Below are positions 294-20,827 of a stretch of 64,000 bases of DNA, piece after piece; within the stretch, counting starts at the first letter, position 1; the number at the start of each line of letters is the position of its first letter. The stretch is taken from positions 1,054,001 through 1,118,000 of the forward strand of contig NZ_SJRW01000002.1 in the NCBI RefSeq assembly GCF_004352825.1. The letters run 5' to 3'. The notes under the pieces were generated by a model. The model was not told the DNA's origin. It saw only the letters and a list, made by a program, of their open reading frames with translations, and ran no database searches. The translations under genes and the position numbers were made by a program. The stretch comes from Luteimonas arsenica. Lineage in GTDB: Bacteria > Pseudomonadota > Gammaproteobacteria > Xanthomonadales > Xanthomonadaceae.

Positions 294-311
294 GAGGGCA
301 GGTTCAAAAGC

Positions 312-481
312 TTTGCCACGGATCACGCGGATTACGCGGATTTACACGGATAGAGCAGAAGCCTCTTACTGCGAACAGCCGTGCTGCGATGCGCGCGCGG
401 TCATCCGACAAGCAGCCTCAACACAGTAGTCGCCCTGCTTTATCCGTGTAAATCCGCGTAATCCGCGTAATCCGTGGCAAA
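312..481. repeat. Empty inverted-repeat element (MITE-like), copy 1
   Basis: Two 47-nt arms, 312-358 and 435-481, are inverted copies that match at 45 of 47 positions. They enclose 76 bp with no ORF. Each arm holds four heptamers of the form CRCGGAT, spaced 9, 9 and 10 bp. The left arm ends inward in GATAGAGCAG and is preceded outside by AAAAGCTTTG. The right arm ends inward in GATAAAGCAG and runs outside into eight A residues. Copy 2 at 12330-12840 has the same pair of unlike ends in the opposite orientation. The element fills most of the gap between the convergent NUDIX and serA genes and could fold into a long hairpin, perhaps acting as a two-way terminator. Confidence 0.85.
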
Positions 482-523
482 AAAAAGGCTTCCGGTTTCC
501 CGCTCGAAGCGAACCGCAGCCGT

Positions 524-1756: not shown

Positions 1757-1875
1757 CGCCGGCCTGTGGATGGGTGCGGCTCAAGTGTGCCAGCGGCTGG
1801 CCGATGTTGCACTGCAGCGGTGGACGCTGGCCCGCGCCGCTGGCAGGCTGGGCCTCCCACCATGGCGGCCCGGCG

Positions 1876-3590: not shown

Positions 3591-3602
3591 TGGCCGGGGG
3601 CG

Positions 3603-5381
3603 GTGCCGAAGCACACACTGAAGGCGTTCACGCTGGCGGCATGGCTGGCGTTCGCAGCGGACGCTGAGGCCGCGCTGCGGATCGAGGCGGAGCCGGGCCC
3701 GCCTGAGGCGGAGCTGGCGGCGACGCAGGAACTCGTGGACGAGGCGCTCTCGCGGCTGCCACCGCGTTGGCGCGCGCAGGAGCGCACGCTCCAGCTGGCC
3801 TGGCGCGATGATTTGCCCGAAGGCGTGCACGGCCGCATCCGCGGCCGGCGGATCGGGCTGTCGCGCGCGCTGCTGGACGGGGCAGGGGCGGGCATCGAGC
3901 CGGCCGTCGCGGCGCTGCTGCACGAGCTGGCCCACGCCTGGGACCGCGAGCACGGCCTGTCGCGTGATCCCCGCCTGCTGGATCTCGCCGGCTGGCAGGT
4001 GCGGCCGCTGTGGCCCGGACGCACGCGCCGCAACGACTTCAGCGCGCGCAGCCCGGACGCCTACGAGCTGCATTCACCGGCCGAATTCGTGGCGGTGAAC
4101 CTCGAGCACTTCCTGCTCGATCCCGGCTACGCCTGCCGCCGCCCGGCGCTGCACGCCTGGTTCTCGGCGCACTTCGACTGGGCGCCCCACGCGCCCGCGT
4201 GCGATGCGGCGCTGCCCTACGTGGATGCCGGCGCGCTGTCGGATGCCGGCGCTGCACCGCTGCTGGAGCTCGATCCCGCGCGCGTGTTCGCGGTCGACTA
4301 CCTGCTCGCCGGCGACGGCGACGCCATGATGAGCCGCTGGGGCCACAGCATGCTGCGGCTGGTGGTCTGCGCGCCGGGGCGTGAGCCCGGACCCGACTGC
4401 CGCCTCGACCTCGACCACCACCGCGTGCTCTCGTTCCGCGCCTTCGTCGATGACCTGCAGCTGTCGAGCTGGCGCGGGCTGACCGGCGGCTATCCCTCGC
4501 GGCTGTTCGTGCTGCCGATGCAGCAGGTGGTGGACGAGTACACGCGCGTCGAGCTTCGGCCGCTGGAATCAGTCCCGCTGCAACTGTCGGGCGATGCGAT
4601 CGCGGCCCTGCTGGAGCGCGCCGCGCACGTGCACTGGAGCTACGACGGTCGCTACCGCTTCATCGGCAACAACTGCGCGGTCGAAACCTGGAAGCTGCTG
4701 CACGACGGCGTTCCCGGTGTGGCCGATGCCGGCCTCGACAGCATCACGCCCAAGGGCCTGCTGCGACGCCTGCGCCGCGCAGGCCTGGTGGACGATGCGC
4801 AGCGACCTGCCGATCCCGTCGAGGCGCTGCGTCTGGGCTACCGCTTCGAGCCCTGGAGCGCCCACTACCAGGCGCTGTACGACACCGCGCGCGAACGGCT
4901 GGCGCTCGGCCCCGATGATGTCGAAGCCTGGCTGCGCCTGCCGCCGTCGCGGCGCGCATCCTGGCTGGAGCGCGGCGACATGCGCGCCTCGGCCGCCCTC
5001 CTGCTGCTGGAAGAGGCCGCGCTGCGACGCGAGGAGCAGCAGGCCCGCGACGTGCTGAAGCGGCACGTGAGCCTCGACGGGCTGCCGGACCTGCTCGTCG
5101 AGGCCCTGCGCGAAGGCGGCGTGCTGGCGAGCCCCGCGGAACTGCTCTCGCTGCCCGGTTACGGCCTGCCGCAGGCCGCCGAGCGCGAACAGGCCCGCGC
5201 CGGCGCCGGCGCGCGCGCGGCACGCTTGCGCGAGCTCGATGCACGCCTGCACGCCGTGGCCCGCGAATGGCTGCCGCCCGCGAACCGCGCGGCGCTGGAA
5301 CAGACCGAGGCCAACATCGCGGCCCTGGGCGACCGCCTGAGGACCCTGCACCAGGCCGAAGGCGGCCTCACGCTGCCCTAG
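3603..5381 (+). CDS. DUF4105 (Lnb-like) exported protein with HExxH site
   Basis: A 592-residue protein beginning at GTG 3603, with a short signal peptide (1-23). The first third carries HELAHAWD (HExxH at 107-111), a zinc-metallopeptidase signature, so this half may be a peptidase-like domain. The middle part (about 230-430) looks like the DUF4105/Lnb N-terminal periplasmic domain, with GHSMLRLV and NNCAVETWKLL; His and Cys there could form a papain-like site. The C-terminal quarter is helical and Arg/Glu-rich. Function is not established. It probably acts in the periplasm with the DUF2388 protein 12 bp upstream. Confidence 0.7.
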   Translation: MPKHTLKAFTLAAWLAFAADAEAALRIEAEPGPPEAELAATQELVDEALSRLPPRWRAQERTLQLAWRDDLPEGVHGRIRGRRIGLSRALLDGAGAGIEPAVAALLHELAHAWDREHGLSRDPRLLDLAGWQVRPLWPGRTRRNDFSARSPDAYELHSPAEFVAVNLEHFLLDPGYACRRPALHAWFSAHFDWAPHAPACDAALPYVDAGALSDAGAAPLLELDPARVFAVDYLLAGDGDAMMSRWGHSMLRLVVCAPGREPGPDCRLDLDHHRVLSFRAFVDDLQLSSWRGLTGGYPSRLFVLPMQQVVDEYTRVELRPLESVPLQLSGDAIAALLERAAHVHWSYDGRYRFIGNNCAVETWKLLHDGVPGVADAGLDSITPKGLLRRLRRAGLVDDAQRPADPVEALRLGYRFEPWSAHYQALYDTARERLALGPDDVEAWLRLPPSRRASWLERGDMRASAALLLLEEAALRREEQQARDVLKRHVSLDGLPDLLVEALREGGVLASPAELLSLPGYGLPQAAEREQARAGAGARAARLRELDARLHAVAREWLPPANRAALEQTEANIAALGDRLRTLHQAEGGLTLP

Positions 5382-5397
5382 CGGCCCGTGCGGAGGT

Positions 5398-5964
5398 TCA
5401 GTCGGCGCGGCCCGAGAACTCGCCGCTGGTGGTGTTCACCAGCACGCGCTCGCCGTTGACGATGTACTCCGGCACCTGGATTTCGAGGCCGGTCGACAGC
5501 CGCGCCGGCTTGGGGCGCTTGGTCGCGGTGCCGCCCTTGAGCTCCGGCGGCGTCTCCACGACTTCCAGCGCCACGGTCTGCGGCAGCTGCACCGCCACCG
5601 GCATGTCGTCGATGACCTGCACGTAGCAGCCGGTCAGGCCGTCGGTGATGTAGCCGGCGGATTCGCCGACCACATCGGCGTCCAGCGTGTAGGGGGTGAA
5701 GTCCTCGTCGTCCATGAACACGAAGGCCTCGCCGTCCTTGTAGGAGAAGCTGGCCTGGCGGCGCAGCAGCTCGACTTCCTTCAGCTCGTCGTCGCCGTCG
5801 AACGAGGCGTCGGTCTTGTTGCCGCCGGGCACGCTGTACATGGTGAAGCGGAAGCGCACGTTGCCGCCGCGACCCTGCGGCGAGCTGCGCTCGATGTCGC
5901 GCACCTGGTACACGGTGCCGTTGTGCTCGACCACGTTTCCTTTCTTGACGTCGTAAGCCTTCAT
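5398..5964 (-). CDS. efpL: Elongation factor P-like protein EfpL (YeiP)
   Basis: A 188-residue protein with the three-domain EF-P fold: KOW-like N domain, OB domain, and C-terminal domain ending in [17 protein letters not shown]. The loop that enters the peptidyl-transferase centre reads [10 protein letters not shown] with Arg32 near the tip. This is the longer EfpL (YeiP) loop, not the modified-lysine loop of canonical EF-P. EfpL relieves ribosome stalling at polyproline and related motifs. I chose ATG 5964 because a longer frame upstream adds only non-conserved residues. It lies 10 bp downstream of the SDR gene on the same strand, so the two may be co-transcribed. Confidence 0.88.
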
Positions 5965-5974
5965 CGCGTGTTCC

Positions 5975-6745
5975 TTACTTCGATGCCAGGCGCACGGCGC
6001 CATCGAGGCGGATGGTCTCGCCGTTGATGTAGCGGTTGCCGGCGATGTACGCCACCAGGTCCGCGAACTCCTCCGGGCGGCCGAGGCGCGAGGGGAAGGG
6101 AATCGAGGCCGACAGCGACCGCTGCACGTCCTCGGGCATGCCGTCGACCATCGGCGTCCAGAAGATGCCCGGGGCGATGGTGTTGACGCGGATGCCGAAG
6201 CGCGAGAGTTCGCGCGCCATCGGCAGGGTCATGCCGACCACGCCGCCCTTCGAGGCCGAGTACGCGGCCTGGCCGATCTGGCCCTCGTAGGCCGCGACCG
6301 AGGCGGTGTTGACGATCACGCCGCGCTCGCCGTCCTCGCCCGCGTCGTTGTGCTGCATCAGCTCCGCGCCTGCCTTGGCGACGTTGAAGCTGCCGACCAG
6401 GTTGACCATCACCGTCGACTGGAAGCGGCCCAGCGGCATCGAGCCCTCGCGGCCGAGCACGCGGCCGGCGCCGAGGATGCCGGCGCAGTTGACCACCGTG
6501 TTCAAGCCGCCCAGGAACTCCTTCGCGGCGGCGACGTTGGCGGCCACGGCGGCCTCGTCGGTGACGTCGGTGGCGAAGTAGCGCGCACTGGCTTCGCCGA
6601 GCGCCGCGACCGCGGCGGCGCCCTTGTCTTCGTTGACGTCGAACAGGGCGACCTTGCCGCCGTCGGCGACGATGCGGGTGGCAACGGCGAGGCCGAGGCC
6701 GGAGACGCCGCCGGTGACGACGGCGCGGATGGAATCAGCTTGCAT
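5975..6745 (-). CDS. Short-chain dehydrogenase, probable 3-hydroxyacyl-CoA dehydrogenase (HSD17B10 type)
   Basis: A 256-residue classical SDR. It has TGGVSGLG (cofactor glycine motif), DVTD, NCAG, a Ser in the TASVAAYEG segment, and the YSASKGG catalytic Tyr/Lys. The pattern of [26 protein letters not shown] and [12 protein letters not shown] followed by FADLVAYI is that of type II/HSD17B10 enzymes, which oxidise 3-hydroxy-2-methylbutyryl-CoA in isoleucine breakdown. The location next to leucine/isovalerate catabolic genes supports this. Substrate preference is inferred. A REP-like palindrome follows upstream of its start. Confidence 0.8.
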
Positions 6746-6792
6746 GGCAGTCCCGTGCAGGAGGGAAAGCGGGAATTTTACCGGACTCCGAC

Positions 6793-6838
6793 TGTGGGAG
6801 CCGCTATAGCGGCGATCGCGGCCATGGCCGCTCCCACA
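6793..6838. repeat. REP/BIME-like palindrome
   Basis: Inward-facing TGTGGGAGC ends enclose two short hairpins (CCGCTATAGCGG and GCGGCCATGGCCGC), giving a doublet of REP type. It lies in the 120-bp gap upstream of the SDR start and downstream of the GGDEF-EAL stop. The TGTGGGAGC head resembles the REP heads of pseudomonads and xanthomonads. It may stop or attenuate read-through between the two genes. It is the only copy in this window. Confidence 0.75.
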
Positions 6839-6865
6839 ACAGGGAGGGGCGCCCGCCGCAGGCAG

Positions 6866-9418
6866 CTACAGCCGCGATGCGAACTCGTCCGGCGACAGTC
6901 CCGGGGCGAACAGGAAGCCCTGGCCCACCGGCACGCCCAGCTCCAGCAGGAACCGGCGCTGGCCTTCGTTCTCGATGCCTTCGGCCACCAGGCCCAGGCC
7001 GAGGCTGCGCGCGATGCCGGCCACGGCCTGGCAGACCGCCACGTCGGACTGGTTCCCGGGCACTCCGGCCACGAACAGCTGGCTCAGCTTCAGGCCCTGG
7101 ATCGGCAGCCGGCGCAGGTAGTTGAGCGCGCTGTAGCCCTCGCCGAAGTCGTCGATGGCCAGGCTCACGCCCAGCTCGCGCAGCGCGGCGAAATTGCCCA
7201 GGGTCTCGGGCGCGTCCTCGATCAGGACCCGCTCGGTGAACTCCAGCTCCAGCGCCTCCCCGGGCAGGTCGAACTCCCGCAGCAGCCCGCGCACCAGGGC
7301 GGTCAGGTCGCTGCCCAGCAGCTGGCGGTAGGACACGTTCACCGCCACCCGGACGATGCCCAGGCCCTGGTCGCGCCAGGCGGCGGCCTGGCGGCAGGCA
7401 TCGCGCAGCACCCATTCGCCGATGCGCACGATGTCGCCGGTGCCCTCGGCCTGGGCGATGAAGTGATCGGGGCGCATCTCGCCCAGGCGCTCGTTGCGCC
7501 AGCGGATCAGCGCTTCGGCACCGATGATCCCGCCGCTGACCAGGTCCACCTGCGGCTGGTAGACGAGGTGGAACTCGTCGTTGTCGGCGGCGTGGCGCAG
7601 CTGGGTCTCGAACTGCAGGCGCTCGCGCTGCGACTGCGCGAGCGCCGGGGTGTAGACCAGGCGGCCGTTGCGGGTGCGCCGCTTGCTCTCGTACATCGCC
7701 GCGTCGGCGTGCTGGATCAGCGTCTGTGCATCCACGCCGTCTTCCGGTGAACGCGCGATGCCGATACTGGCGGTGACCACGAACTCGTCCTTGTCGAAGC
7801 CGAAGCCCACCGCGAAGGCGTCGAGGATGGCGTCGGCCAGTCGTTCGGGGCGGCGCGCGTCGTCGCCGCAGTGGCAAGACACCAGGAATTCGTCGCCGCC
7901 GAAGCGCGCGATCAGGCCCTCGTCGCCGACGGCCCGGCGCAAGCGGTCGGCGGCGGCGGTGAGCAGGCTGTCGCCGGCGGCGTGGCCGAGCACGTCGTTG
8001 ATGAGCTTGAAGCGGTCCAGGTCGATGTACAGCACCGCGACCGGTCCCGGGCGTGGCCCGCCCAGGCGCTCGCCGAGTTCGGCGAGCATCGCATCGCGGT
8101 TGAGCAGGCCGGTGAGCGGGTCGCTGCGCGCGAGCACGCGCAGGTTCTGCTCGCCCTGCTTGCTCACGGTGATGTCCTGCAGGGTGCCGGTGACGCGCGT
8201 GGCGCCGGCCACCCCGCTGCCGCTTTCACCGATGACCCGCACCCAGAAGGCCTGGCCGTCGCTGCCCGCGCCCTGCAGGTCCAGTTCGAAGCCGCTGCCT
8301 TCGCTGGCCGCGGCCAGGGCCTTGCGCAGGCGCTGCCCGTCGCCGGGCTGCAGGCAGGCCAGCACCGCCTCCATCGAGCGCGGGTGCTGGGCCTGGGCGA
8401 GGATCAGCGCGGCCTCGCGGGTGAGGTAGAGCCGGTCGCTGGCGCGGTCCCATTCCCAGCCGCCGATGCTGGCCAGCGACTGCACGCGGTCGAACAGGGC
8501 GCTGTCGCGCTTGAGGTCGGTGACGTCGGAGAACATCGACAGCACCTGGTCGGGGCTGTCGCCACCGGCCGCGTAGTGCGGGATCGCGGTCACCGACAGC
8601 CACAGCAGCCGGCGTCGCAGGCGGTGGTAGAGGCCAAGGAGGACGCTGCCGATGATCCGACCCTCGCGCAGCGCACGCATCGCCGGGAACTCGGACATCG
8701 GCATTTCGCTGCCGTCGGCACGGACCAGCATCCAGTGCTCGGGCAGGCTGCCGTCCCGTGGCACGTGCGCTCCCTCGCGGACGCCGAGCATGCGCAGCGC
8801 CGCGGAATTGGCGTGCACCAGGGCGCCGTTCGCCGACTGGATGACGATGCCCTTGTCGATCACCTCCATCAGATCGTGGTAGCGCGATTCGGCCTCGCGA
8901 CGGCGGCTGAGGTCGCGGGCCACCGCCACCACGCAGCGCTGGCCGTCGAGGTCGAAGCCGGCCGAATGCACCTCCACAGGGAAGCGGGTGCCGTCCGCGC
9001 GCATGTTGCTGACCTCGATGACATAGGTCTCGCCGCGGTCGAGCGCTTCCATCACCGGGATCATGTGGTCCTCGGGCAGGTCGGGATTGAGCACGTGGAT
9101 CGGCTGGCCCACGACTTCTTGGCGCGGGCGGCGGTAGGCGGCCATGCCGGCCTTGTTGAGGTCGAGCACGGTGCCGTCGGCGGCGATCACGCTGACCGGG
9201 TCGGGCACGGCGTGGAACAGCGCGCGGTAGCGCATCTGTGCGTGGTGGATGTCGAGGCTGGCCGCATGCAGGGCGTCCAGCGCTTCGCGCAGGAGGACGC
9301 GGGTGGCGTCGGGGAGGGTGGGGTCGCTGACGGCGGCCTCGAGTGCCGCCAGGGTCCGCGCGTTGCCGCCATCGCCTGGAGGCGTCATCGGCGGGTCCGG
9401 CGGCAGCGACAGGGTCAC
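6866..9418 (-). CDS. PAS-PAS-PAS-GGDEF-EAL cyclic-di-GMP enzyme
   Basis: An 850-residue soluble sensor without obvious membrane segments. Three PAS-like regions (about 60-180, 185-300, 305-410) precede a GGDEF domain with an intact ARFGGDEF site (near residue 506) and an EAL domain with EALIRW (near 635) and DDFGEGYS. Both catalytic signatures are kept, so the protein may both make and degrade c-di-GMP. The GTG at 9418 overlaps the HMG-CoA lyase stop by 4 bp (GTGA); an ATG at 9388 is an alternative start. Position as the last gene of the leucine catabolic run is unusual and suggests co-expression with it. Confidence 0.92.
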   Translation of the reverse strand: MTLSLPPDPPMTPPGDGGNARTLAALEAAVSDPTLPDATRVLLREALDALHAASLDIHHAQMRYRALFHAVPDPVSVIAADGTVLDLNKAGMAAYRRPRQEVVGQPIHVLNPDLPEDHMIPVMEALDRGETYVIEVSNMRADGTRFPVEVHSAGFDLDGQRCVVAVARDLSRRREAESRYHDLMEVIDKGIVIQSANGALVHANSAALRMLGVREGAHVPRDGSLPEHWMLVRADGSEMPMSEFPAMRALREGRIIGSVLLGLYHRLRRRLLWLSVTAIPHYAAGGDSPDQVLSMFSDVTDLKRDSALFDRVQSLASIGGWEWDRASDRLYLTREAALILAQAQHPRSMEAVLACLQPGDGQRLRKALAAASEGSGFELDLQGAGSDGQAFWVRVIGESGSGVAGATRVTGTLQDITVSKQGEQNLRVLARSDPLTGLLNRDAMLAELGERLGGPRPGPVAVLYIDLDRFKLINDVLGHAAGDSLLTAAADRLRRAVGDEGLIARFGGDEFLVSCHCGDDARRPERLADAILDAFAVGFGFDKDEFVVTASIGIARSPEDGVDAQTLIQHADAAMYESKRRTRNGRLVYTPALAQSQRERLQFETQLRHAADNDEFHLVYQPQVDLVSGGIIGAEALIRWRNERLGEMRPDHFIAQAEGTGDIVRIGEWVLRDACRQAAAWRDQGLGIVRVAVNVSYRQLLGSDLTALVRGLLREFDLPGEALELEFTERVLIEDAPETLGNFAALRELGVSLAIDDFGEGYSALNYLRRLPIQGLKLSQLFVAGVPGNQSDVAVCQAVAGIARSLGLGLVAEGIENEGQRRFLLELGVPVGQGFLFAPGLSPDEFASRL

Positions 9419-10311
9419 CCGGCCCGTGCCCTGGTGACCCTGCTGCCGGTGTCGCGGCCGAGGATCCCCGACAGCCAGGCCCCGGTGTCGACCAGGGCAT
9501 CGAGGTCCACGCCGGTCGCGACGCCCAGGCCGTGCAGCATGTAGACCAGGTCCTCGGTGGCGAGGTTGCCGCTGGCGCCCTTCGCATACGGGCAGCCGCC
9601 GGTGCCGGAGACCGCGGCGTCGACCACCGTCACGCCGTCATCCAGGCAGGCCAGCACGTTGGCCAGGGCCTGGCCGTAGGTGTCGTGGAAATGGATGGCC
9701 AGCGCCGGCATCGGCACGTCCGCGGCGACCGCGCGCAGCATGGCGCGCGCCTTCGCCGGCGTGCCCACGCCGATGGTGTCGCCCAGCGAGACCTCGTAGC
9801 AGCCCATCGCATGCAGCGCGCGCGCGACGCGGACCACGTCGGCCAAGGGCACCTCGCCCTGGTAGGGGCAGCCGAGCACGGTGGAGACGTAGCCGCGCAC
9901 CTTCACTCCGTCGGCCTGTGCGCGTTCGAGCACGGGCGCGAAGCGCTCCAGCGATTCATCGATGCCGGCGTTGGTGTTGCGGCGGTTGAAGGCCTCCGAG
10001 GCCGCGGTGAACACCGCCACTTCTTCGGCACCCACCGCGCGCGCGCGCTCGTAGCCCTGCAGGTTGGGCACCAGCACGGGGTAGGCCACGCCGTCACGGC
10101 GGTGGATGCCCGCGAAGACTTCGGCGGCGTCGGCCAGCTGCGGCACCCATTTCGGGCTGACGAAGCTGGTGGCCTCCACGGTCTGCAGCCCGGTGGCGGA
10201 CAGGCGGTCGACCAGTTCGATCTTGGCCGCGGTGGCGACCATCGCGGATTCGTTCTGGAGCCCGTCGCGGGGCCCCACTTCAACGATGCGGACGTGTCCC
10301 GGAAGCGCCAC
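9415..10311 (-). CDS. liuE: Hydroxymethylglutaryl-CoA lyase
   Basis: Cleaves HMG-CoA to acetoacetate and acetyl-CoA, the last step of leucine breakdown. The 298-residue TIM-barrel protein has VGPRDGLQNE near the N-terminus (catalytic Arg/Asp), HFHDTYGQ (metal-binding His) and the GCPYAKGASGN loop with the catalytic Cys of the HMGL family. It starts at GTG 10311, one base after the liuD stop, and overlaps the GGDEF-EAL gene by 4 bp, so it sits in the middle of a tight operon. Also called mvaB or hmgL. Confidence 0.95.
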   Translation of the reverse strand: MALPGHVRIVEVGPRDGLQNESAMVATAAKIELVDRLSATGLQTVEATSFVSPKWVPQLADAAEVFAGIHRRDGVAYPVLVPNLQGYERARAVGAEEVAVFTAASEAFNRRNTNAGIDESLERFAPVLERAQADGVKVRGYVSTVLGCPYQGEVPLADVVRVARALHAMGCYEVSLGDTIGVGTPAKARAMLRAVAADVPMPALAIHFHDTYGQALANVLACLDDGVTVVDAAVSGTGGCPYAKGASGNLATEDLVYMLHGLGVATGVDLDALVDTGAWLSGILGRDTGSRVTRARAG

Positions 10312-10312
10312 C

Positions 10313-12322
<2,010 letters not shown>

Positions 12323-12329
12323 TTTTTTG

Positions 12330-12840
12330 GCCACGGATGAACGCGGATGGACGCGGATTTACACGGATAAAGCAGGGAGAGTCTAAGAGAAAACGCGGCG
12401 GCGGAACTCCGGGCGAGGGCCGAAGTTGAGGAGAAGCCCGAGGTGGACACGGGTCGCCTTGAGGTAATTCAGGAGCTGGGCTTCGTGGGCGGGGGCGATC
12501 TGGACGGCTGCCTTGATCTCGATGAGCAGCCGACGCTCGACCAGCATGTCCGCGCGAAACTGGCCGACGACATGGCCGTGGAAGCGGACGTCGATGGGCA
12601 CCTGCTGCTCCACCCGTAACCCGCATTCGCGCAGCCGGACGGCCAGCGCCGCCTCATACACGCTCTCCAGGAAGCCGTGCCCCAACTCGTTGTAGGTATC
12701 GAAAAACGCCCCGATCACCCGATCACTCAGTCGCCGAAGCACCAGTGAACCACGATCCGCATCCATGCGAAGCCCTCATCCATCAATCCAGCTTTTGCTC
12801 TATCCGTGTAAATCCGCGTCCATCCGCGTTCATCCGTGGC
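12330..12840 (-). mobile_element. Inverted-repeat element carrying a GxxExxY nuclease gene, copy 2
   Basis: Arms 12330-12374 and 12796-12840 are inverted copies matching at 44 of 45 positions. Each contains four CRCGGAT heptamers at exact 10-bp spacing. They enclose one gene (12383-12766). The right arm ends inward in GATAGAGCA and is followed outside by the AAGAGCTTTT complement of copy 1's left outer end. The left arm has GATAAAGCAG inside and a T-run outside. The two unlike ends therefore match those of copy 1 (312-481) in reverse orientation. No clear target-site duplication is visible. It separates liuC from liuD within an otherwise continuous operon. The mobile nature is inferred. Confidence 0.7.
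12383..12766 (-). CDS. GxxExxY family protein (PD-(D/E)XK nuclease fold)
   Basis: A 127-residue protein with the defining GxxExxY motif in GHGFLESVYEAAL (residues 29-41). It then shows a PD-(D/E)XK-like core: Asp in FRADMLV, EIK in LLIEIKAA, and the later QLLNYLKAT helix. The N-terminus (LSDRVIGAFFDTYNELG) is typical of the family. Family members often occur as scattered near-identical genes and their role is unknown. Here the gene is enclosed by long inverted repeats and reads in the same direction as the leucine operon. I infer that the protein acts on the repeats or on nucleic acid containing them, which is not shown by sequence. Confidence 0.85.
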   Translation of the reverse strand: MDADRGSLVLRRLSDRVIGAFFDTYNELGHGFLESVYEAALAVRLRECGLRVEQQVPIDVRFHGHVVGQFRADMLVERRLLIEIKAAVQIAPAHEAQLLNYLKATRVHLGLLLNFGPRPEFRRRVFS

Positions 12841-12856
12841 AAAGAGCTTTTCGCTT

Positions 12857-13639
12857 CTATTCAGCCCACGAAGCGGAACGCTTGTCGAGGAAGGCGCCCA
12901 GGCCCTCCTGGCCTTCGGGGGAGACGCGCAGGGCGGCGATGAGGGCGGCGTTGTCGTGGTCGAGGCGGTCGCGGTCGGGGGCGGCGGCGACTTCGCGGAC
13001 CAAGCGCTTGGCGTCCGCGGAGGCGAAGGGCGCGGCCTTCAGCAGCAGGGCGATCTGGCGGTCGACGGCGGCGTCCAGCTCGTCCGCGGCCACCACGTCG
13101 TGCAGCAGTCCGATGCGCTGCGCTTCGGCGGCGTCGAAGATCTCGGCCGTGGCGAAATAGCGCCGGGCGTGGCGCGCGCCGATCGCGGCGATGACGTAGG
13201 GCGAGATCACCGCCGGAAGCAGGCCCAGGCGGCTCTCGGTCAGGCCGAACTTCGCCGCGGGCACGCCGATGGCGATGTCGCAGCAGGCCACCAGGCCGAC
13301 GCCGCCGCCGAAGGCCGCGCCGTGGACGCGGGCGATGGTCGGCTTCGGCAACTCGTCCAGGGTGCGCATCAGCTTCGCCAGGCGCAGCGAGTCCTCGCGG
13401 TTGGCCTCCTCGCTGGCGGCGGCCATGCCGCGCATCCAGTTCAGGTCGGCGCCGGCCGAGAACGAGGCGCCGGCGCCCTCCAGCACCACCGCGCGCACGC
13501 CGGGGTCGCGACCCAGCCCTTCGAAGGCTTCCGTCAGGGCGGCGATCAGGCCGTCGTCGAAGGCGTTGTGCAGGGCCGGGCGGTCCATGCGCACGCGCGC
13601 GATCCGGTCCTGGCGTTCGATCCTCAGCGGTTCGGTCAT
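12857..13639 (-). CDS. liuC: Methylglutaconyl-CoA hydratase (enoyl-CoA hydratase family)
   Basis: A 260-residue crotonase-fold protein. It has the oxyanion-hole segments SFSAGADLNWM (about 59-69) and HGAAFGGGVGLVACCDIAIG, and the FGLTESRLGLLPAVISPYV region typical of AtuE/LiuC-type hydratases. It hydrates 3-methylglutaconyl-CoA to HMG-CoA between the carboxylase and the lyase. It is the first gene of the liuC-liuD-liuE run, separated from liuD by the inserted inverted-repeat element. The start is ATG 13639, upstream of which lies the divergent efe promoter region. Confidence 0.88.
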   Translation of the reverse strand: MTEPLRIERQDRIARVRMDRPALHNAFDDGLIAALTEAFEGLGRDPGVRAVVLEGAGASFSAGADLNWMRGMAAASEEANREDSLRLAKLMRTLDELPKPTIARVHGAAFGGGVGLVACCDIAIGVPAAKFGLTESRLGLLPAVISPYVIAAIGARHARRYFATAEIFDAAEAQRIGLLHDVVAADELDAAVDRQIALLLKAAPFASADAKRLVREVAAAPDRDRLDHDNAALIAALRVSPEGQEGLGAFLDKRSASWAE

Positions 13640-13706
13640 GGCGGGCTCCTGGCGGGCCCGGAATCATACCGTTCCGCTTCCGCCGTCCCGGGGGCGGGCG
13701 GAGTAC

Positions 13707-13730
13707 AATTGAGAAGCGTTCTCGTTCTCA
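13707..13730 (+). promoter_or_regulatory. Probable Fur box upstream of efeU
   Basis: The sequence AATTGAGAAGCGTTCTCGTT and the following CTCA contain the inverted GAGAA/TTCTC core of Fur boxes, with a second TTCTC repeat directly after. It ends about 21 bp before the efeU ATG, a position suited to repression by Fe-Fur. Efe systems are iron-regulated in other gammaproteobacteria. Binding is inferred. Confidence 0.65.
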
Positions 13731-13751
13731 CCCTTTCCCGCCCGGCCATCC

Positions 13752-14588
13752 ATGCTCACCCCCAGCTTCGTCGCCCCCTTCCTGATCATGCTGCGCGAGG
13801 GCATTGAAGCCGCGCTGATCGTCGGCATCATCGCCAGCTACCTGAAGCAGACCGGACGCGGCGACGCCATGCGCTGGGTCTGGCTGGGGATCGCGCTGGC
13901 GGTCGCCGTGTGCGTGGCGGTGGCCATGGCGATCCAGCACGGCGGCCACGAATACCCGCAGAAGCAGCAGGAGCTGATCGAGGCCGTGGTCGCGATCATC
14001 GCCGTGGTGGTGCTGACCGGCATGGTGTTCTGGATGAAGAAGGCCGGCCGCGGCATGAAGGCCGAACTGCAGCAGTCCATTGACCGCGCGATGGCGCGTG
14101 GGGACCGCTGGACCTGGGCCCTGGTCGGCATGGCCTTCCTCGCGGTCGCGCGCGAAGGCCTGGAATCGCTGTTCTTCCTGCTCGCCATCGTGCAGCAGGA
14201 CACCACCGGCACCGCGATCACCGGCGCCGCGCTCGGGCTGCTGGTCGCGATCGCCCTGGGCGTGGGCCTGTACCACGGCTCGGTGCGCATGAACCTGCAG
14301 GTCTTCTTCCGCTGGACCGGGGTGCTGATCATCCTGGTCGCCGCGGGCCTGGCCGCCGGTGCGCTGAAGTCGCTGCACGAGGCCGGCATCTGGAACCAGC
14401 TGCAGGCGCTGGCCTTCGACTGGACGCAGGTGCTGCCGGTGTACAGCCTGGCCGGCAGCCTGCTGGCGGCCGTGTTCGGCTACAACGACCACCCCACGGT
14501 CGGCGAGGTGGCGGTGTACCTGCTCTACCTCGTGCCGGTGCTGTTCCTCTATTTCCGGGCAGACCGCCAGGCCGCGCGCGCCCGCTGA
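13752..14588 (+). CDS. efeU: Ferrous iron permease EfeU
   Basis: A 278-residue Ftr1/EfeU-family permease with seven predicted membrane helices. Both iron-handling REGxE motifs are present: REGIEAAL near residue 16 and REGLESLF near 135. It imports iron across the inner membrane together with the EfeO/EfeB proteins encoded downstream. The gene follows a probable Fur box and is the first of four tightly spaced plus-strand genes. The ATG at 13752 places REGIE in the first helix, as in the family. Confidence 0.93.
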   Translation: MLTPSFVAPFLIMLREGIEAALIVGIIASYLKQTGRGDAMRWVWLGIALAVAVCVAVAMAIQHGGHEYPQKQQELIEAVVAIIAVVVLTGMVFWMKKAGRGMKAELQQSIDRAMARGDRWTWALVGMAFLAVAREGLESLFFLLAIVQQDTTGTAITGAALGLLVAIALGVGLYHGSVRMNLQVFFRWTGVLIILVAAGLAAGALKSLHEAGIWNQLQALAFDWTQVLPVYSLAGSLLAAVFGYNDHPTVGEVAVYLLYLVPVLFLYFRADRQAARAR

Positions 14589-14626
14589 CCCCGTCACCCG
14601 AATTTTCCACTTCGCAAGGACTACCG

Positions 14627-15520
14627 ATGAAGACGATTGAACGCGCATGCTCCCTGCCGCTGGCCCTGGCCGGCCTGCTGGCGCTTGCCGCGTGCGGCGG
14701 GCAGTCGCCGCAAGGTGCCGCCGCCGCGGACGCGGGCGATGCCGCGGCGACCGCCGCCGCCGGCACCACGATCGATCCGGCCGAGCTGGTCGAGCCGATC
14801 GCGATGTACAAGCTCTACGTCAGCGAGCAGACGGAGCAGCTGGTGGCCGATACCCGGCGCTTCGTCGAAGTGGTCAAGGCCGGCGACAACGAGACCGCGG
14901 CCCAGCTGTACGCGCCGGGCCGCCAGTCCTGGGAGCGGATCGAACCGATCGCCGAGCTGTTCTCCGACCTGGACGCGTCGATGGACGCGCGCGCCGACGA
15001 CTACAAGGGCGGCGAGTCCGATCCCGGCTTCACCGGCTGGCACCGCCTGGAATACGCGATCTTCAGCGAGAAGAGCCTGGAGGGCATGGATGAGATCGCC
15101 GACCGGCTGCTCGCCGACACCCTTGACCTGCAGGCGCGCATCGCCGACCTGCCGCTGGAGCCGCGCGCGGTCGTGGGCGGGCCGGCGGTGCTGATCGAGG
15201 AGGTCGCGGCCACCAAGATCAGCGGCGAGGAGAACCGCTACAGCGGCACCGACCTGTGGGACTTCCGCGCCAACGTCGACGGGTCGCAGAAGATCGTCGA
15301 GCTGTTCCGTCCGCTGATCGAGCGCGCCAACCCCGCGCTGCTGGCCGATATCGACGCCAACTTCGCCACCGTCGACCAGGCGCTGGAGACCTACCGCCGC
15401 GGCGACGGCTGGGCGCACTACGGTGAAGTGACCGACGCCGACCGCAACACGCTGAAGGGCGCGATCACCGCGCTGGCCGAGCAGCTGGCACAGCTGCGCG
15501 GCACGCTCGGGGTGGACTGA
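14627..15520 (+). CDS. efeM: EfeM-like imelysin lipoprotein of the Efe system
   Basis: A 297-residue protein with a lipoprotein signal (LLALAACGG, Cys at about residue 24), followed directly by an M75 imelysin-type helical domain. The conserved HxxE metal motif is visible as GWHRLEYAIF. The cupredoxin domain of full-length EfeO is absent, which is the EfeM form. It is expected to bind iron in the periplasm and hand it to EfeU. It starts 38 bp after efeU, with AGGA before ATG 14627, and ends 2 bp before efeO. Confidence 0.85.
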   Translation: MKTIERACSLPLALAGLLALAACGGQSPQGAAAADAGDAAATAAAGTTIDPAELVEPIAMYKLYVSEQTEQLVADTRRFVEVVKAGDNETAAQLYAPGRQSWERIEPIAELFSDLDASMDARADDYKGGESDPGFTGWHRLEYAIFSEKSLEGMDEIADRLLADTLDLQARIADLPLEPRAVVGGPAVLIEEVAATKISGEENRYSGTDLWDFRANVDGSQKIVELFRPLIERANPALLADIDANFATVDQALETYRRGDGWAHYGEVTDADRNTLKGAITALAEQLAQLRGTLGVD

Positions 15521-15522
15521 AC

Positions 15523-16683
15523 ATGGACGAAGCCCGGGTCGAAGTGCGCGCGCCGCGTGGCGTCGCCGCCTCCGCGGCGATTGCGACCGCGACCGTCGCG
15601 CTGCCGCTGTTGCTCGCCGCCTGCGCGCCGCCACCCGGGGTCGCGGACGCCGACGGCGTGCCGGTGACGCGGATCAGCGTCACCGACACCGCCTGCGTGC
15701 CCAACGAGGTTACGGTCAAGGCCGGTCGCAACCGCTTCGTCATCACCAACCAGAGCATGCGCCCGCTGGAATGGGAGATCCTGGACGGCGTGATGGTGGT
15801 GGACGAGCGCGAGAACATCATCCCCGGCCTGGAGCAGACCCTGACCACGCCGCTCAAGCCCGGGCGCTACGTCATGACCTGCGGCCTGCTGACCAACCCG
15901 CGCGGCACCCTGGTCGTGGAAGCCGACGCCGATGCACCGAAGGCGGCGCCGACGCCGCTGGAGTTCATCGCCGGCCAGGCCGAATACAAGGTCTACGTGC
16001 ACCAGCAGGTCACCGCGATGCAGGCCGAAGTGGCGGCGCTGGCCGAAGCGCTGCGCGCCGGCGACCTGCCGCGCGCGCGTTCGCTGTACGCGGATTCGCG
16101 CCAGGGCTGGCAGCGCCTGGCGCCGGTGGCGCTGCTGGCGTCCACGCAGTACGACCGCCTCGAAGGCGCGGCAACGCTGTACGCCGGCGGCGAATCGGAT
16201 CCGGACTTCGTCGGCTGGCACCGGATCGAGGACGCGCTGTTCGACGGCGGCGATGTTTCGCCCGCGGCGCTGGCCGCGCTGGGCGATGCGCTCGAGGCCG
16301 ACAGCCGCGCCTTCGGCGATGCGATCAAGGCCGCTTCGATCGGCACGGACGCGATCTTCCGGGGCGCCGCGCAGACCGCGCGCCGGATCGCCGAACGCAA
16401 GCTCGAAGGCCTGGACCATCCCCACGCCGGCACCGACCTGTCCGATGCCGCGGCCAACGTCGCCGGCCTGCGCCGGATCGTGGTGCTGTTCGACAAGGCC
16501 CTGGCCGAGCACGCGCCGCGGCAGCGCGAAGACATGATCGCGCGTCTGGACGCCCTGCAGACGGGGCTGCCCGATGACGGCAGTCGATCCGGCCTGGAGG
16601 GCAACGGGCGAGCGGGACTGGCGGACGAGGCCACGGCGCTCGCGGACGATTTCGGCAACACCCTCGACACGCTCGGACTTTGA
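15523..16683 (+). CDS. efeO: EfeO: cupredoxin plus imelysin iron-binding lipoprotein
   Basis: A 386-residue protein with a lipobox (LLLAACAPP, Cys34), a cupredoxin-like domain (about 50-140; Cys in TACVPNEVTV and MTCGLLTNPRG) and a C-terminal M75 imelysin domain (about 145-345) with the HxxE motif in GWHRIEDALF. Cupredoxin-type EfeO is thought to oxidise or bind Fe(II) for delivery to EfeU. It lies directly after the cupredoxin-less EfeM, so the operon encodes both forms. The last 40 residues are low-complexity. efeB follows after 19 bp. Confidence 0.88.
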   Translation: MDEARVEVRAPRGVAASAAIATATVALPLLLAACAPPPGVADADGVPVTRISVTDTACVPNEVTVKAGRNRFVITNQSMRPLEWEILDGVMVVDERENIIPGLEQTLTTPLKPGRYVMTCGLLTNPRGTLVVEADADAPKAAPTPLEFIAGQAEYKVYVHQQVTAMQAEVAALAEALRAGDLPRARSLYADSRQGWQRLAPVALLASTQYDRLEGAATLYAGGESDPDFVGWHRIEDALFDGGDVSPAALAALGDALEADSRAFGDAIKAASIGTDAIFRGAAQTARRIAERKLEGLDHPHAGTDLSDAAANVAGLRRIVVLFDKALAEHAPRQREDMIARLDALQTGLPDDGSRSGLEGNGRAGLADEATALADDFGNTLDTLGL

Positions 16684-16702
16684 GACAGGCACACAGGGCA
16701 GC

Positions 16703-18067
16703 ATGAGCAGCACACACGGCAAATCCGGTGGCACCGAAGCCGACAACAGCACAGCACGCCAGGATGCAGCGGGCGTCGATGCAGCGGCCGGCCGCAATGA
16801 CATGGCGCCGGCGATCACCAGCCCCTCGCGGCGCTCGCTGCTCAAGGGCGGCCTGCTGGCCGCCGGCGGTGCCGCCGCGGCCGCGGGCCTGGCCGCATGC
16901 CGGCGCGAAGGCCCGGACGCGGGCGGCGGCAAGCGCGCCACCGACAGCACCCTGCAGTCGCAGCCCTTCCGCGGCGTCCACCAGTCGGGCATCACCACGC
17001 CCACCCAGGCGGCCGCGATCGTGGTCGCGATGGACGTGGTCGGCCGCGGCCGGCCGGTGCTGGAGCGGCTGTTCCGCAAGCTAGACGAGCGCATCGCCTT
17101 CCTGATGCAAGGCGGCGCGGTGGCCGAACGCAACCCGCAGCTGCCGCCGCTGGATTCCGGCGTGCTCGGGCCGACGGTGTTCCCGGACAACCTCACGGTC
17201 ACGTTGAGCGTCGGCGCCTCGCTGTTCGACGACCGCTTCGGGCTGGCCGCGGCGAAGCCGAAGCAACTGGTCGAGATGCCGTCCTTCCGCAACGATTCGC
17301 TCGACGCCAGCCTGTGCGACGGCGACCTGATGCTGCAGATCTGCAGCAACACCGCCGAGACCAACATCCACGCCCTGCGCGACATCATCAAGCAGTCGTC
17401 CGGCCTGGCGAACCTGCGCTGGACGCTTGACGGCTTCCTGCCGCCGCACACGGTGCAGAAGCTGGGCAAGGATTCGATCATCAACCTGCTGGGCTTCAAG
17501 GACGGCACCGCCAACCCGGACGCCGGCGACGCGCGGCTGATGGACGGCATGGTCTGGGTGCAGCCGGACTCGGGCGAACCGGCCTGGGCCATCGGCGGCA
17601 GCTACCAGGCGGTGCGCATCATCCGCAACTTCGTCGAATTCTGGGATCGCACGCCGCTGCGCGAGCAGGAGCAGATCATGGGCCGGCACAAGGCCAGCGG
17701 CGCGCCGCTGGGCATGAAGCGCGAGCACGACGAATTCGACTACGCCAACGATCCCGACGGCGAGGTCACCCCGCTCGACGCGCACATCCGCCTGGCCAAT
17801 CCGCGCACGCCGGGCAGCCGGCAGATCCTGCGCCGCAGCTACAACTACTCGCGCGGCTTCACCCGCTCGGGCCAGCTCGACCAGGGCCTGCTGTTCGTCT
17901 GCTACCAGTCCGACCTGGACGAGGGCTTCATCGCGATCCAGAAGCGCCTGGACGGGGAGCCGCTGGAGGAATACATCAAGCCCTTCGGCGGCGGCTTCTA
18001 CTTCGCGCTGCCGGGCGCGCGCGATGAAGGCGAATACCTGGGCCAGCGCCTGGTGGAAGCGGCCTGA
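16703..18067 (+). CDS. efeB: EfeB, TAT-exported DyP-type heme peroxidase
   Basis: A 454-residue protein with a twin-arginine signal (SRRSLLKGGLL then an Ala-rich hydrophobic stretch, about residues 33-60). It has the DyP-peroxidase GxxDG motif in LLGFKDGTANP, a distal Asp, and a later FTRSGQLDQGLLF segment typical of EfeB. It is exported folded with heme and acts in the periplasm on Fe(II) or heme in the Efe system. I chose ATG 16703, preceded by AGGG; a longer open frame upstream overlaps efeO and lacks conserved character. Confidence 0.92.
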   Translation: MSSTHGKSGGTEADNSTARQDAAGVDAAAGRNDMAPAITSPSRRSLLKGGLLAAGGAAAAAGLAACRREGPDAGGGKRATDSTLQSQPFRGVHQSGITTPTQAAAIVVAMDVVGRGRPVLERLFRKLDERIAFLMQGGAVAERNPQLPPLDSGVLGPTVFPDNLTVTLSVGASLFDDRFGLAAAKPKQLVEMPSFRNDSLDASLCDGDLMLQICSNTAETNIHALRDIIKQSSGLANLRWTLDGFLPPHTVQKLGKDSIINLLGFKDGTANPDAGDARLMDGMVWVQPDSGEPAWAIGGSYQAVRIIRNFVEFWDRTPLREQEQIMGRHKASGAPLGMKREHDEFDYANDPDGEVTPLDAHIRLANPRTPGSRQILRRSYNYSRGFTRSGQLDQGLLFVCYQSDLDEGFIAIQKRLDGEPLEEYIKPFGGGFYFALPGARDEGEYLGQRLVEAA

Positions 18068-18097
18068 GCCGCCGGCTTTCGCACCCGCGCCCCCGCC

Positions 18098-18472
18098 TCA
18101 GTGGCGGGAGCGGGAGTTGGGCCGCTTGGGCATGCGGCGCATGTCGTTGGTGGGCGTCAGCTCCACCGCCAGGGTGAAGGTGCGCGCGTCGCCGGGATGG
18201 ATCGCACCGACGCCGACCACCTGGTGCGAGACCTCGTTGCCTTCGTCGTCGCGGATGGTCAGCACCACCGAGTATTCCCAGGCGCCGCCTTCGGACGGAT
18301 GCCGGATCTCGCCCTCGACCTGCAGCGCGCGCGTGACCTCGGCGGCCGCTCCCTGCTCGTCGAAGCGCAGGTAGTGGCGGCACGACGGACAGCGCGTCGC
18401 GCTTTCAAGGATCACGGTCTTGCAGTGCGGGCAGGTGCGCGTGGCACCTGCCGCGCCGGGGCGTGCGCTCAC
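18098..18472 (-). CDS. Small zinc-ribbon protein next to bactofilin
   Basis: A 124-residue protein with CPHC and CPSC motifs about 15 residues apart (residues 14-32), forming a zinc ribbon. A beta-rich domain follows (ALQVEGEIRHP, YSVVLTIRDDEGNEV, GDARTFTLAVELTP) and then a basic tail. It starts at GTG 18472, overlapping the bactofilin stop by 4 bp (GTGA), so the two are probably translated together. Function unknown; the coupling suggests a role with the bactofilin polymer. A longer frame upstream runs through the bactofilin gene out of frame and is not used. Confidence 0.7.
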   Translation of the reverse strand: MSARPGAAGATRTCPHCKTVILESATRCPSCRHYLRFDEQGAAAEVTRALQVEGEIRHPSEGGAWEYSVVLTIRDDEGNEVSHQVVGVGAIHPGDARTFTLAVELTPTNDMRRMPKRPNSRSRH

Positions 18473-19041
18473 GAGACGAGGTCGAGGCCGGCCTTGTCCT
18501 TGCTGTCCTTCTGCGCCGCGTCGTCCTTGCCCTTGGCGGGTGCGGCGGCGTCGTCCCAGCCGCACTCCACGTTGCCGCGGATGCGCGAACCGGAGGCGAC
18601 GATCAGGGTGCCGGCCTTGACGTCACCGATCAGCACCGCGGAGGGCTGCAGTTCCACGCGCTCGGCGGAATCGATGTTGCCTTCCAGCTCACCGGCCACG
18701 TTCACGCGCTTGGCGCGCACGCCGCCGTTGAGGCGGGCGCCGCCGTCGATGGTGAGGTCGCCCTCGACGTTGACGTCGCCCTTGAACTTGCCGGCGATGC
18801 GGACGTGGCCGCTGCCGGAGATCTTGCCCTCGATGGTGAGGTCGGAGGCGATCACCGATTCCCGGGCCTGCGGCGCCGAAGCTGCCTGCGGGGGGCGGCT
18901 GGCGGCCTGCGGCTGGAAGGGCGTCTCGGCCGGCTCGAACGAGGCGGCTGCCGGACTCTGTTCGCGCGCTGGCTGGGGGGCATCCTTGCCGAAGGGGAGG
19001 GTGGAATCTTTCTTGGCGGAGCCTTGCGGGAAAATAGCCAT
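18469..19041 (-). CDS. Bactofilin (polymer-forming cytoskeletal protein)
   Basis: A 190-residue protein. Residues 65-160 form the bactofilin beta-helix, shown by short repeating strands such as LTIEGKISGSGHVRIAGK, FKGDVNVEGDLTI and GGVRAKRVNVAGELEGNI. Proline/alanine-rich disordered tails flank it on both sides. Bactofilins self-assemble without nucleotide and act in cell shape or envelope positioning. I chose ATG 19041 (MAIFPQGSAKK); upstream codons are not protein-like. The stop overlaps the GTG start of the zinc-ribbon gene. Confidence 0.9.
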   Translation of the reverse strand: MAIFPQGSAKKDSTLPFGKDAPQPAREQSPAAASFEPAETPFQPQAASRPPQAASAPQARESVIASDLTIEGKISGSGHVRIAGKFKGDVNVEGDLTIDGGARLNGGVRAKRVNVAGELEGNIDSAERVELQPSAVLIGDVKAGTLIVASGSRIRGNVECGWDDAAAPAKGKDDAAQKDSKDKAGLDLVS

Positions 19042-19219
19042 GGCGCGGTGGGTCCTCGGTGCGTTCGGGGGATGAGGTGGAGGCCGACCATAGCACGCGG
19101 CCGGCTTCACGCGCCTGTGACGCGGCTCACCAAATCCGAAGCCCGACAAGGACTTAGCGCGGGAAGCTCAGGCCAGGTTCCGGCAGTGTCGGCCCAGGCC
19201 GTGGCGCCGCCGGGCCCGC

Positions 19220-20827
19220 CTACATGCGGAAGACGCCGAAGCGCGCGGGTTCCACCGGCGCATTCAGCGACGCAGACACCGCCAGGCCGAGCACCCGGCG
19301 GGTGTCGGCGGGATCGATGATGCCGTCGTCCCACAGCCGCGCGCTGGCGTACCAGGGGCTGCCCTGCGACTCGTACTGCTCACGGATCGGCGCCTTGAAG
19401 GCTTCCTCGTCCCCGGCGCTCCATTCGCCGCCCCGGGCCTCGATGCCGTCGCGCTTCACGGTGGCCAGCACGCTGGCCGCCTGCTCGCCGCCCATCACGC
19501 TGATGCGCGCGTTGGGCCACATCCACAGGAAGCGGGCGCCGTAGGCGCGGCCGCACATGGCGTAGTTGCCGGCGCCGAAGCTGCCGCCGATGACCACGGT
19601 GAACTTCGGCACCGACGAGCAGGCCACCGCGGTGACCATCTTCGCCCCGTCCTTGGCGATGCCGGCATTCTCGTATTTCCTGCCGACCATGAAGCCGGTG
19701 ATGTTCTGCAGGAACACCAGCGGGATGCCGCGCTGGTTGCACAGTTCGATGAAGTGCGCGCCCTTGAGCGCCGACTCCGAGAACAGGATGCCGTTGTTGG
19801 CGACGATGCCCACCGGATAGCCGTGCAGGTGGGCGAAGCCGGTGACGAGCGTCTTGCCGTAGCGCGCCTTGAACTCCTGGAACTCGCTGCCGTCGACGAT
19901 GCGCGCGATCACCTCGCGGATGTCGAAGGGCCGGCGCGTGTCCTTCGGCACGATGCCGTACAGCTCCTCGGCCGCGAACAGCGGCTCGACCACCGGGCGC
20001 GTCGCCACCGGCAGCACCTTGTGGCGGTTGAAGCTGCCGACGATGTCGCGTGCGATCTGCAGCGCGTGGCGGTCGTCCTCGGCGAAGTGGTCGGCCACGC
20101 CCGACACGGACGTGTGCACGTCGGCACCGCCCAGGGATTCCGCATCCACCACTTCGCCGGTGGCCGCCTTCACCAGCGGCGGGCCGCCGAGGAAGATCGT
20201 GCCCTGTTCCTTCACGATCACCGACTCGTCGCACATCGCCGGCACGTAGGCGCCGCCGGCGGTGCAGCTGCCCATCACCACCGCGACCTGCGGGATGTTT
20301 TCCGCGCTCATCCGCGCCTGGTTGTAGAAGATGCGGCCGAAGTGCTCCTTGTCCGGGAACACCTCGTCCTGCAGCGGCAGGAAGGCACCGCCGGAGTCGA
20401 CCAGGTAGACGCAGGGCAGATGGTTCTCGCGCGCGACTTCCTGCGCGCGCAGGTGCTTCTTCACCGTCATCGGGAAGTAGGTGCCGCCCTTGACCGTGGC
20501 GTCATTGGCGACCACCACCACTTCCTGGCCCATCACCCGGCCGATGCCGCAGACCATGCCGGCGGCGGGCGCGGCGCCCTCGTACATGTCCTCGGCGGCC
20601 AGCGGCGCGATTTCCAGGAAGGGCGAACCCGGGTCGAGCAGGGCGGCGATGCGCTCGCGCGGCAGCAGCTTGCCGCGGGCGACGTGCTTTTCGCGCGCCT
20701 TGTCGCCGCCGCCGTCGGCGGCCCGTGCCAGGCGGGCGTCGAGTTCGTCCACCAGTGCGCGGTGGAAGGCGACGTTGTCCTGGAAGTCCTGCGAGCGCGG
20801 GTCGAGGCTGGAGGCGAGGGCGGGCAT
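19220..20827 (-). CDS. liuB: Methylcrotonyl-CoA carboxylase beta subunit (carboxyltransferase)
   Basis: A 535-residue acyl-CoA carboxyltransferase with both crotonase-like halves. It has [16 protein letters not shown], the [20 protein letters not shown] segment, [14 protein letters not shown] (acyl-CoA oxyanion site) and [16 protein letters not shown] (biotin side), all typical of MccB/LiuB. It works with LiuD, about 7 kb away across the efe operon, to carboxylate 3-methylcrotonyl-CoA. It stands alone, with a terminator upstream for the preceding gene. Confidence 0.95.

Follow-up and report, generated by a model that had tools for sequence, protein, structure and literature searches.

The 64,000-nucleotide stretch of the Luteimonas arsenica genome analyzed here (assembly GCF_004352825.1, contig NZ_SJRW01000002.1, positions 1,054,001 to 1,118,000; the window) carries a gene of the GxxExxY family between two long inverted arms, and a second pair of arms in the window encloses no gene (Table 1). 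A preliminary description of the stretch had proposed that the two copies represent a new mobile unit and its non-autonomous form. The best explanation of the results presented below is that they belong to a widespread class of single-gene elements, in each of which two inverted arms enclose one small gene for a predicted PD-(D/E)XK nuclease.

Both the repeats and the gene were confirmed. The two copies are the top two inverted repeats of the window among the 25 longest of the 72 pairs listed, the third-ranked being 72% complementary with its arms 41 kb apart. The arms of gene-bearing copy 2 are 45 nt long with one mismatch (48 nt at 96% in the window listing, which takes in three outer bases), those of geneless copy 1 are 47 nt long with a 96% match, and in both copies CGGAT units stand in rows at a spacing of 9 or 10 nt. 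As single-stranded DNA, copy 1 folds at -64.7 kcal/mol (z -11.5 versus shuffles), and with its plus-then-minus arm order it has the inverted, hairpin-capable layout of the doublets of repetitive extragenic palindromic (REP) sequences termed REPINs. In the genome (2.97 Mb in 7 contigs, with a single PF13366 gene) the arm core was matched 44 times in forward and 35 times in reverse orientation at up to 2 mismatches, and not once when the pattern was reversed. Because of this abundance and the folding of copy 1, the two window copies are not chance.

Table 1. Features of the two element copies, numbered from the first letter of the window
Feature	Positions	Strand	Description	Basis
GxxExxY gene	12383..12766	-	127 aa, predicted PD-(D/E)XK fold	open reading frame list, profile matches, structure model, fold matches
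Left arm, gene-bearing copy 2	12330..12374	+	GCC followed by CGGAT units at 10-nt spacing; inner end GATAAAGCA	
Right arm, gene-bearing copy 2	12796..12840	-	inner end, read inward, GATAGAGC	
Outer flank, left arm of copy 2	12322..12329	.	seven T and G, abutting the accC start codon	direct reading
Outer flank, right arm of copy 2	12841..12852	.	AAAGAGCTTTTC	direct reading
Left arm, geneless copy 1	312..358	+	inner end GATAGAGCAG	
Interior, geneless copy 1	359..434	.	76 nt, without gene	
Right arm, geneless copy 1	435..481	-		inverted-repeat listing of the window

The 127-residue product of the enclosed open reading frame (ORF) matched TIGR04256 (GxxExxY) with 129 bits (cut-off 35) and PF13366 with 134 bits (cut-off 22); among the matches listed, the closest named genome was that of Luteimonas padinae, with 99% protein identity. 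A structure model of the protein (predicted local distance difference test score, pLDDT, 94.4) gave fold matches, a sequence search for a relative with a solved structure gave none at E 1, and residues E34, D73, E83 and K85 were invariant across 11 GxxExxY sequences. The core fold and the catalytic D ... ExK of the PD-(D/E)XK superfamily are both present, in agreement with the fold named in the preliminary description, and on this basis the protein is predicted to be a nuclease with intact catalytic residues. With respect to a defense function, a PADLOC search produced just a weak likeness to Cas4 (E 0.03) and a PHROGs search nothing firm, and identity as a defense system was dropped on these grounds. 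The gene is flanked by two co-directional genes, ech (enoyl-CoA hydratase) and accC (acyl-CoA carboxylase biotin subunit), named from a reading of the window translations.

Enclosure by arms was examined in two sets of GxxExxY loci, with a gene counted as enclosed when its two 250-nt flanks gave an inverted match score of at least 16; arm classes and score thresholds were fixed after a first sight of the data. Set 1 comprised the best 80 of 573 confirmed relatives and one viral locus, is biased to the clade of the query, and includes three loci with less than 20 nt of downstream flank. Set 2 was an all-copy set drawn from 20 genomes, each selected for holding a set 1 locus; it took in 70 of their 96 PF13366 matches, leaving aside broken pieces, contig edges and some copies. 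Enclosure was far above the controls in both. In set 1, which spans many phyla, 57 of 81 loci were enclosed, compared with 5/59 displaced windows; in set 2 the count was 60 of 70 copies versus 5 of 207 pseudo-genes, and other ORFs drawn from both sets were enclosed in 5 of 134 cases. When the flanks of different set 1 loci were paired, 148/957 reached the threshold because the motif is shared among loci. Within the bacterial family PF13366 was present in 17 of 297 genomes, most of whose genes lie between arms, and several carry other arm units (CACAGATTT, CGCAAAGGA, CGCCAAGAA); the family set labels 15 of the 17 gene-positive genomes, G084 and G099 (gene in two pieces) being omitted.

The arms are arrays of about 3-5 units of 8-10 nt with the core CRCNRAT or CRCNRAG, and the best repeat period was 8-10 nt in 50 of the 60 enclosed set 2 copies. 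Unit cores are directed inward from both ends (336 versus 72 for GAT cores, 138 versus 19 for RAG cores, the two classes defined below). Units vary between copies of one genome, and a lineage-fixed arm unit was dropped on that account. The asymmetry of the inner ends in the window, GATAGAGC and GATAAAGC, extends to other copies: AAAGC or AGAGC stood at both inner ends in 9 of 13 parsed arm pairs, and in 8 of these 9 there was one of each. The bond between gene and arms is well supported, and we consider it very probable that the two form one functional unit.

GxxExxY genes were also found in records of mobile DNA, with no phage record, 8 plasmid records and 1 viral contig. An armed copy lies on the IMG/VR viral contig L222 (inverted score 19), and the plasmids L140 and L141 bear armed copies with RAG-class arms. 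On a Sphingomonas parapaucimobilis plasmid (L138, NZ_CP155749.1) the gene is located between fabD and fabG with arms undetectable, perhaps as a tamed copy. One 289-aa open frame with two PF13366 matches (G332:C130:29586-30347) is a tandem fusion.

To compare arms with proteins, each arm was labeled by its last core base, CRCNRAT as GAT and CRCNRAG as RAG. Set 1, which was chosen by likeness to GAT-arm proteins, gave 46 GAT, 0 RAG, 11 other, 21 none and 3 short, and set 2 gave 23 GAT, 24 RAG, 13 other and 10 none. On a quick tree of 166 distinct proteins, built from few columns and with 105 labeled rows counted and 61 other or none rows left out, the label changed 3 times, compared with a mean of 25.6 after shuffling and with 0 of 500 shuffles as low. 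The nearest protein in another genome shared the arm class in 101 of 105 cases, and the same test restricted to the 13 genomes holding both classes was correct in 47/49. Within the GAT class, arm likeness grew with protein likeness (Mantel rho 0.31, permutation maximum 0.22). Arm class follows the protein clade and not the genome. Since the independent switches are few, this pattern shows a stable bond between gene and arm type rather than many parallel co-adaptations. The bases between the unit cores are scrambled, and the bond persists despite this scrambling and the turnover of arms within one genus.

Geneless copies, of which copy 1 is one, are abundant in the genome of L. arsenica. Arms were present at all 36 match-holding places fetched, in two classes: class B resembles both window copies, and class A has three units with the inner sequence CTGGCCGAGG. 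Eighteen copies of class A measure either 137-148 or 163-166 nt, and identity between interiors, compared in either orientation, reaches 88% (median 0.43, versus a shuffled median of 0.33 and a shuffled maximum of 0.49). Being geneless and dispersed, with terminal inverted repeats, class A and the other geneless copies share these features with miniature inverted-repeat transposable elements (MITEs). Class A is frequently nested within class B. Such nesting was seen at L052, L062, L064, L072, L075, L076, L081 and L082, as if the interiors of class B were a favored target or a composite unit had been copied.

A 2-kb query of the accC/ech site matched 52/52 genomes of the genus, 30 of which were examined at the site. 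Among the species that carry the gene there, arms are strongly divergent between species with left and right arms alike within each, and in G329 and G324 class A arms surround the same gene. The protein is maintained by purifying selection, since dN/dS was 0.02-0.30 in 21 pairwise comparisons, many of them with dS near or above 1. In other species the site holds short arm-like remnants (G322, G319), 687 geneless nucleotides that begin like an arm (G304), or just 12-57 nt between the aligned ends of the flanking genes (G316, G317, G314, G311, G310, G305). Synteny was compared in three species, with 228 kb of G000 aligned to G309 and 178 kb to G300. Geneless copies were found at many shared sites, that of copy 1 among them, with their arms changed, and six sites that one species has filled are short in another. 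An AAAAGC/GCTTTT tract was retained at at least two of the short sites, which would be either unfilled sites or excisions.

The two arms of a copy change in concert. Among copies of one genome, 53 of 64 left arms found their best match in the right arm of the same copy (14 by chance); when the whole set was compared, 44 of 70 did so. Two copies from a Planctomycetota metagenome-assembled genome, that of locus L171, are 82% identical from arm to arm between unrelated outside flanks (L365 and L366), and the variants particular to each copy, a 5-nt indel among them, appear in both of its arms. Arm mismatches showed no excess of G.U on the coding strand (118 G.U versus 120 A.C in 57 loci; 252 versus 281 in 116 loci). 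Selection on an RNA stem is therefore unlikely as the force acting on the arms and was dropped; the pattern would fit DNA strands that pair and are then corrected, or a single template from which both arms are copied.

These observations suggest an overlooked class of tiny mobile elements, and the best reading of them, by analogy, is that the logic of REPINs and their REP-associated tyrosine transposases (RAYTs) is here run by a PD-(D/E)XK nuclease. We put the probability that the nuclease acts on the arms, and thereby spreads or maintains the doublets, at roughly 0.55. The GxxExxY nuclease would recognize arms of its own class, most likely paired as a hairpin or cruciform, and would cut at the recognized folded arms. 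Repair or copying of the cut form would then spread short doublets in trans with the gene copy staying put, the manner in which RAYTs are thought to spread REPINs (PMC3116915). Once paired, the two arms would be kept alike by mismatch repair or template switching.

A number of points weigh against this reading. Cutting and movement are inferred, as is the driving role that the preliminary description gave to the nuclease. The gene occupies the accC/ech site in seven species (G000, G309, G300, G325, G329, G324, G307), so the gene copy shows no recent movement within the genus. Remnants of the GxxExxY gene were absent from 35 geneless loci, copy 1 included, and for this reason the geneless copies are not visible deletion derivatives of the gene-bearing copy. 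At the short sites in the three-species synteny no target-site duplication or exact element end was readable; homology ends cleanly at both arms in one dispersed pair only, and in L330/L347 it continues past the upstream arm. Arms were not detectable for 10 of the 70 genes in set 2 and 21 of the 81 in set 1, where a further 3 had too little flank. The arm labels were assigned after the arms had been seen, and the link of arm class to protein is based on few independent switches (3 changes). With respect to the outer flanks, the polarity between inner end and outer flank, as judged by reading 8 asymmetric pairs, agreed in 5, was opposite in L074 and L082 and ambiguous in L064, and a fixed outer-flank polarity was dropped. 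Lastly, among the 280 family genomes that lack the gene, 18 are rich in arms, and in the six of these that were read (30 loci) there were just short geneless arms near the matches.

The proposals of the preliminary description are therefore upheld in part. For a mobile unit there are sites filled and empty between species and one dispersed pair with homology ending at the arms; against it stands the gene at one site in seven species. That copy 1 is a non-autonomous form agrees with the abundance of geneless copies and less well with the lack of any gene trace in the 35 loci and with the occupation of the copy 1 site in the two nearest species compared as well. Of the two distinct ends it described, the asymmetry of the inner ends holds (8 of 9 pairs), and the link to the outer flank is not general (5 of 8).

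The alternative that survives best, although we regard it as unlikely, is that the arms are multiplied by another agent, such as a RAYT or other transposase, host slippage or template switching, and that GxxExxY rides along between them as a passenger or as a gene of use to the host. It would account for the majority of arm copies being geneless and for a gene that is immobile within the genus, and it draws on the arm-rich genomes without the gene, which show that arms can outlast the gene or do without it. The preliminary description had taken arms unrelated to GxxExxY genes genome-wide as grounds for giving up its proposal, and those 18 genomes go part of the way; yet 10 of the 17 family genomes with the gene, compared with 18 of the 280 without it, held at least 10 matches to one arm pattern (p 1.3e-7; the counts of 10 and 18, and that of 21 below, were made by hand from tables). 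In at least 5 of the 7 other gene-positive genomes (G004, G036, G054, G151, G084) the arm unit is invisible to this pattern. To look for another cargo gene, arm-rich gene-negative genomes (30 loci in 6 genomes; 18 stretches in 5 genomes) were read for arm pairs and for GxxExxY; the single match to GxxExxY was weak (E 0.026) and covered 33 residues where L440 ends, and a few wide arm pairs (482-1592 nt) were seen. What argues against another agent is that arm class tracks protein clade even within one genome. Moreover, a search of the L. arsenica genome for the Y1 (HUH) transposase PF01797 gave 0 matches, other transposases not having been searched for, and presence of a RAYT (Y1_Tnp) was unrelated to arm number (21 of 28 versus 187 of 269 genomes, p 0.67). 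The RAYT was dropped as the arm driver on these two grounds. Four genomes, G255, G020, G160 and G212 (part of L293-L322), held 63-74 arm-pattern matches and no PF13366 gene.

Less probable still is that GxxExxY is a clean-up or resolvase enzyme which cuts repeat cruciforms and hairpins and so protects the host, the arms being kept alike by breakage and repair and not spread. The weakest alternative, that the element works as RNA like the intervening sequences (IVSs) of 23S rRNA, with a stem removable by RNase III, a protein binding its own transcript and DNA mobility incidental, has in its favor the position of the window gene between two co-directional genes and a layout of inverted stem, short repeats and one small gene like that of the IVSs (PMC4990558), but is improbable given arm mismatches free of G.U bias and no Rfam match to a known RNA family in positions 1-20000 of the window.

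The reading of a nuclease-run doublet system was compared with known repeats, in each case as these are presented in the cited passages. Like REPIN/RAYT systems (REPtrons) and TIRtrons (PMC3116915, PMC3733652), the element has one gene within inverted repeats, many geneless hairpin-capable doublets and a repeat type matched to the protein; unlike them, it has a PD-(D/E)XK nuclease and not a Y1 (HUH) transposase. Its arms are tandem arrays of 8-10-nt units and differ from those of REPtrons in bearing no terminal GTAG or CGTC tag; in the window arms GTAG is absent, and CGTC occurs inside one arm and at no end. By this comparison it would work like a REPtron or TIRtron but is not one, because the Y1 enzyme and the terminal tags are missing. 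The IVSs with S23p/PF05635 (PMC4990558) share the inverted terminal stem, the short tandem units (heptamers in Coxiella) and the single small ORF; the GxxExxY element, in contrast, is intergenic, encodes a PF13366 protein and has an 8-10-nt unit. It lacks the 23S rRNA site and the PF05635 gene of an IVS, the L. arsenica genome being without PF05635. MITEs (PMC3733652) are likewise short, intergenic and non-coding with terminal inverted repeats, as is class A at its 137-148 and 163-166 nt; here, however, no known insertion sequence parent was found, target duplication is unreadable, and the arms consist of internal units changing in concert. The GGGAATC heptamers of Xanthomonas (PMC4692102) are likewise arranged as short tandem arrays that converge in pairs in intergenic DNA, with 70 and 75 cases given, but they are heptamers, and the passages link no gene to them. 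They resemble PF05635 arms rather than those of GxxExxY, and have the look of geneless PF05635-type doublets.

Two other gene families are packaged like GxxExxY, each with its own arm pattern. The possibility of arms at PF05635 genes had been written down before testing, and 30 loci in the bacterial family, 29 of 30 in cross-phylum genomes and 30 loci of DUF559 were then scored. For PF05635, 28 of the 30 family loci scored at least 16 (1 of 30 displaced controls), as did 25 of the 29 cross-phylum loci (3 of 203 controls). The arms had a strict 7-nt period, with autocorrelation of 0.53, 0.52 and 0.49 at 7, 14 and 21 and a best period of 7 in 20 of 25. PF05635 (23S_rRNA_IVP) genes outside rRNA, at L263-L292 and L393-L422, are flanked by inverted tandem-heptamer arms, a layout like that of an IVS. 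With respect to DUF559, which we take to be a PD-(D/E)XK, Vsr-like family, inverted flanks scoring at least 18 were found at 25 of 30 loci in the genus versus 4/201 controls, and at least 16 at 25 of 30 versus 15/201. In G255, which is without a GxxExxY gene, the accC/ech site is occupied by a DUF559 gene that has inverted arms of the CCCTCCCCTTCAAGGGGAGGG type on either side (L423, G255:C11:970600-971500, about 250-730). The coordinates place DUF559 at this same site in G208, G306, G308 and G326 too, and a remnant of it in G297. We see about an even chance that GxxExxY and DUF559 (both of PD-(D/E)XK type) and the four-helix-bundle PF05635 form a so far overlooked bacterial superclass of single-gene elements built on small proteins unrelated to one another, each gene wrapped in its own arms, which its protein keeps and spreads. 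The arm grammars of such a superclass would be 8-10-nt CRCNRAK arrays, CCCTCTCCC hairpins that carry a GGGGTGAGG-type tail, and exact heptamers.

No earlier description of armed GxxExxY, PF05635 or DUF559 elements was found in the open-access papers searched, subscription papers and preprints lying outside this coverage. With this finding GxxExxY proteins acquire a role that can be tested, as by extension do those of PF05635 and DUF559, and abundant families of intergenic repeats gain a candidate cognate protein. If the nuclease acts on its arms, a lone PD-(D/E)XK enzyme would join the HUH and DDE transposases as a new means by which miniature repeats spread, and the class of an arm would identify the enzyme that produced the repeat. 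If the superclass is real as well, a lone PD-(D/E)XK nuclease would do for these doublets what RAYT does for REPINs.
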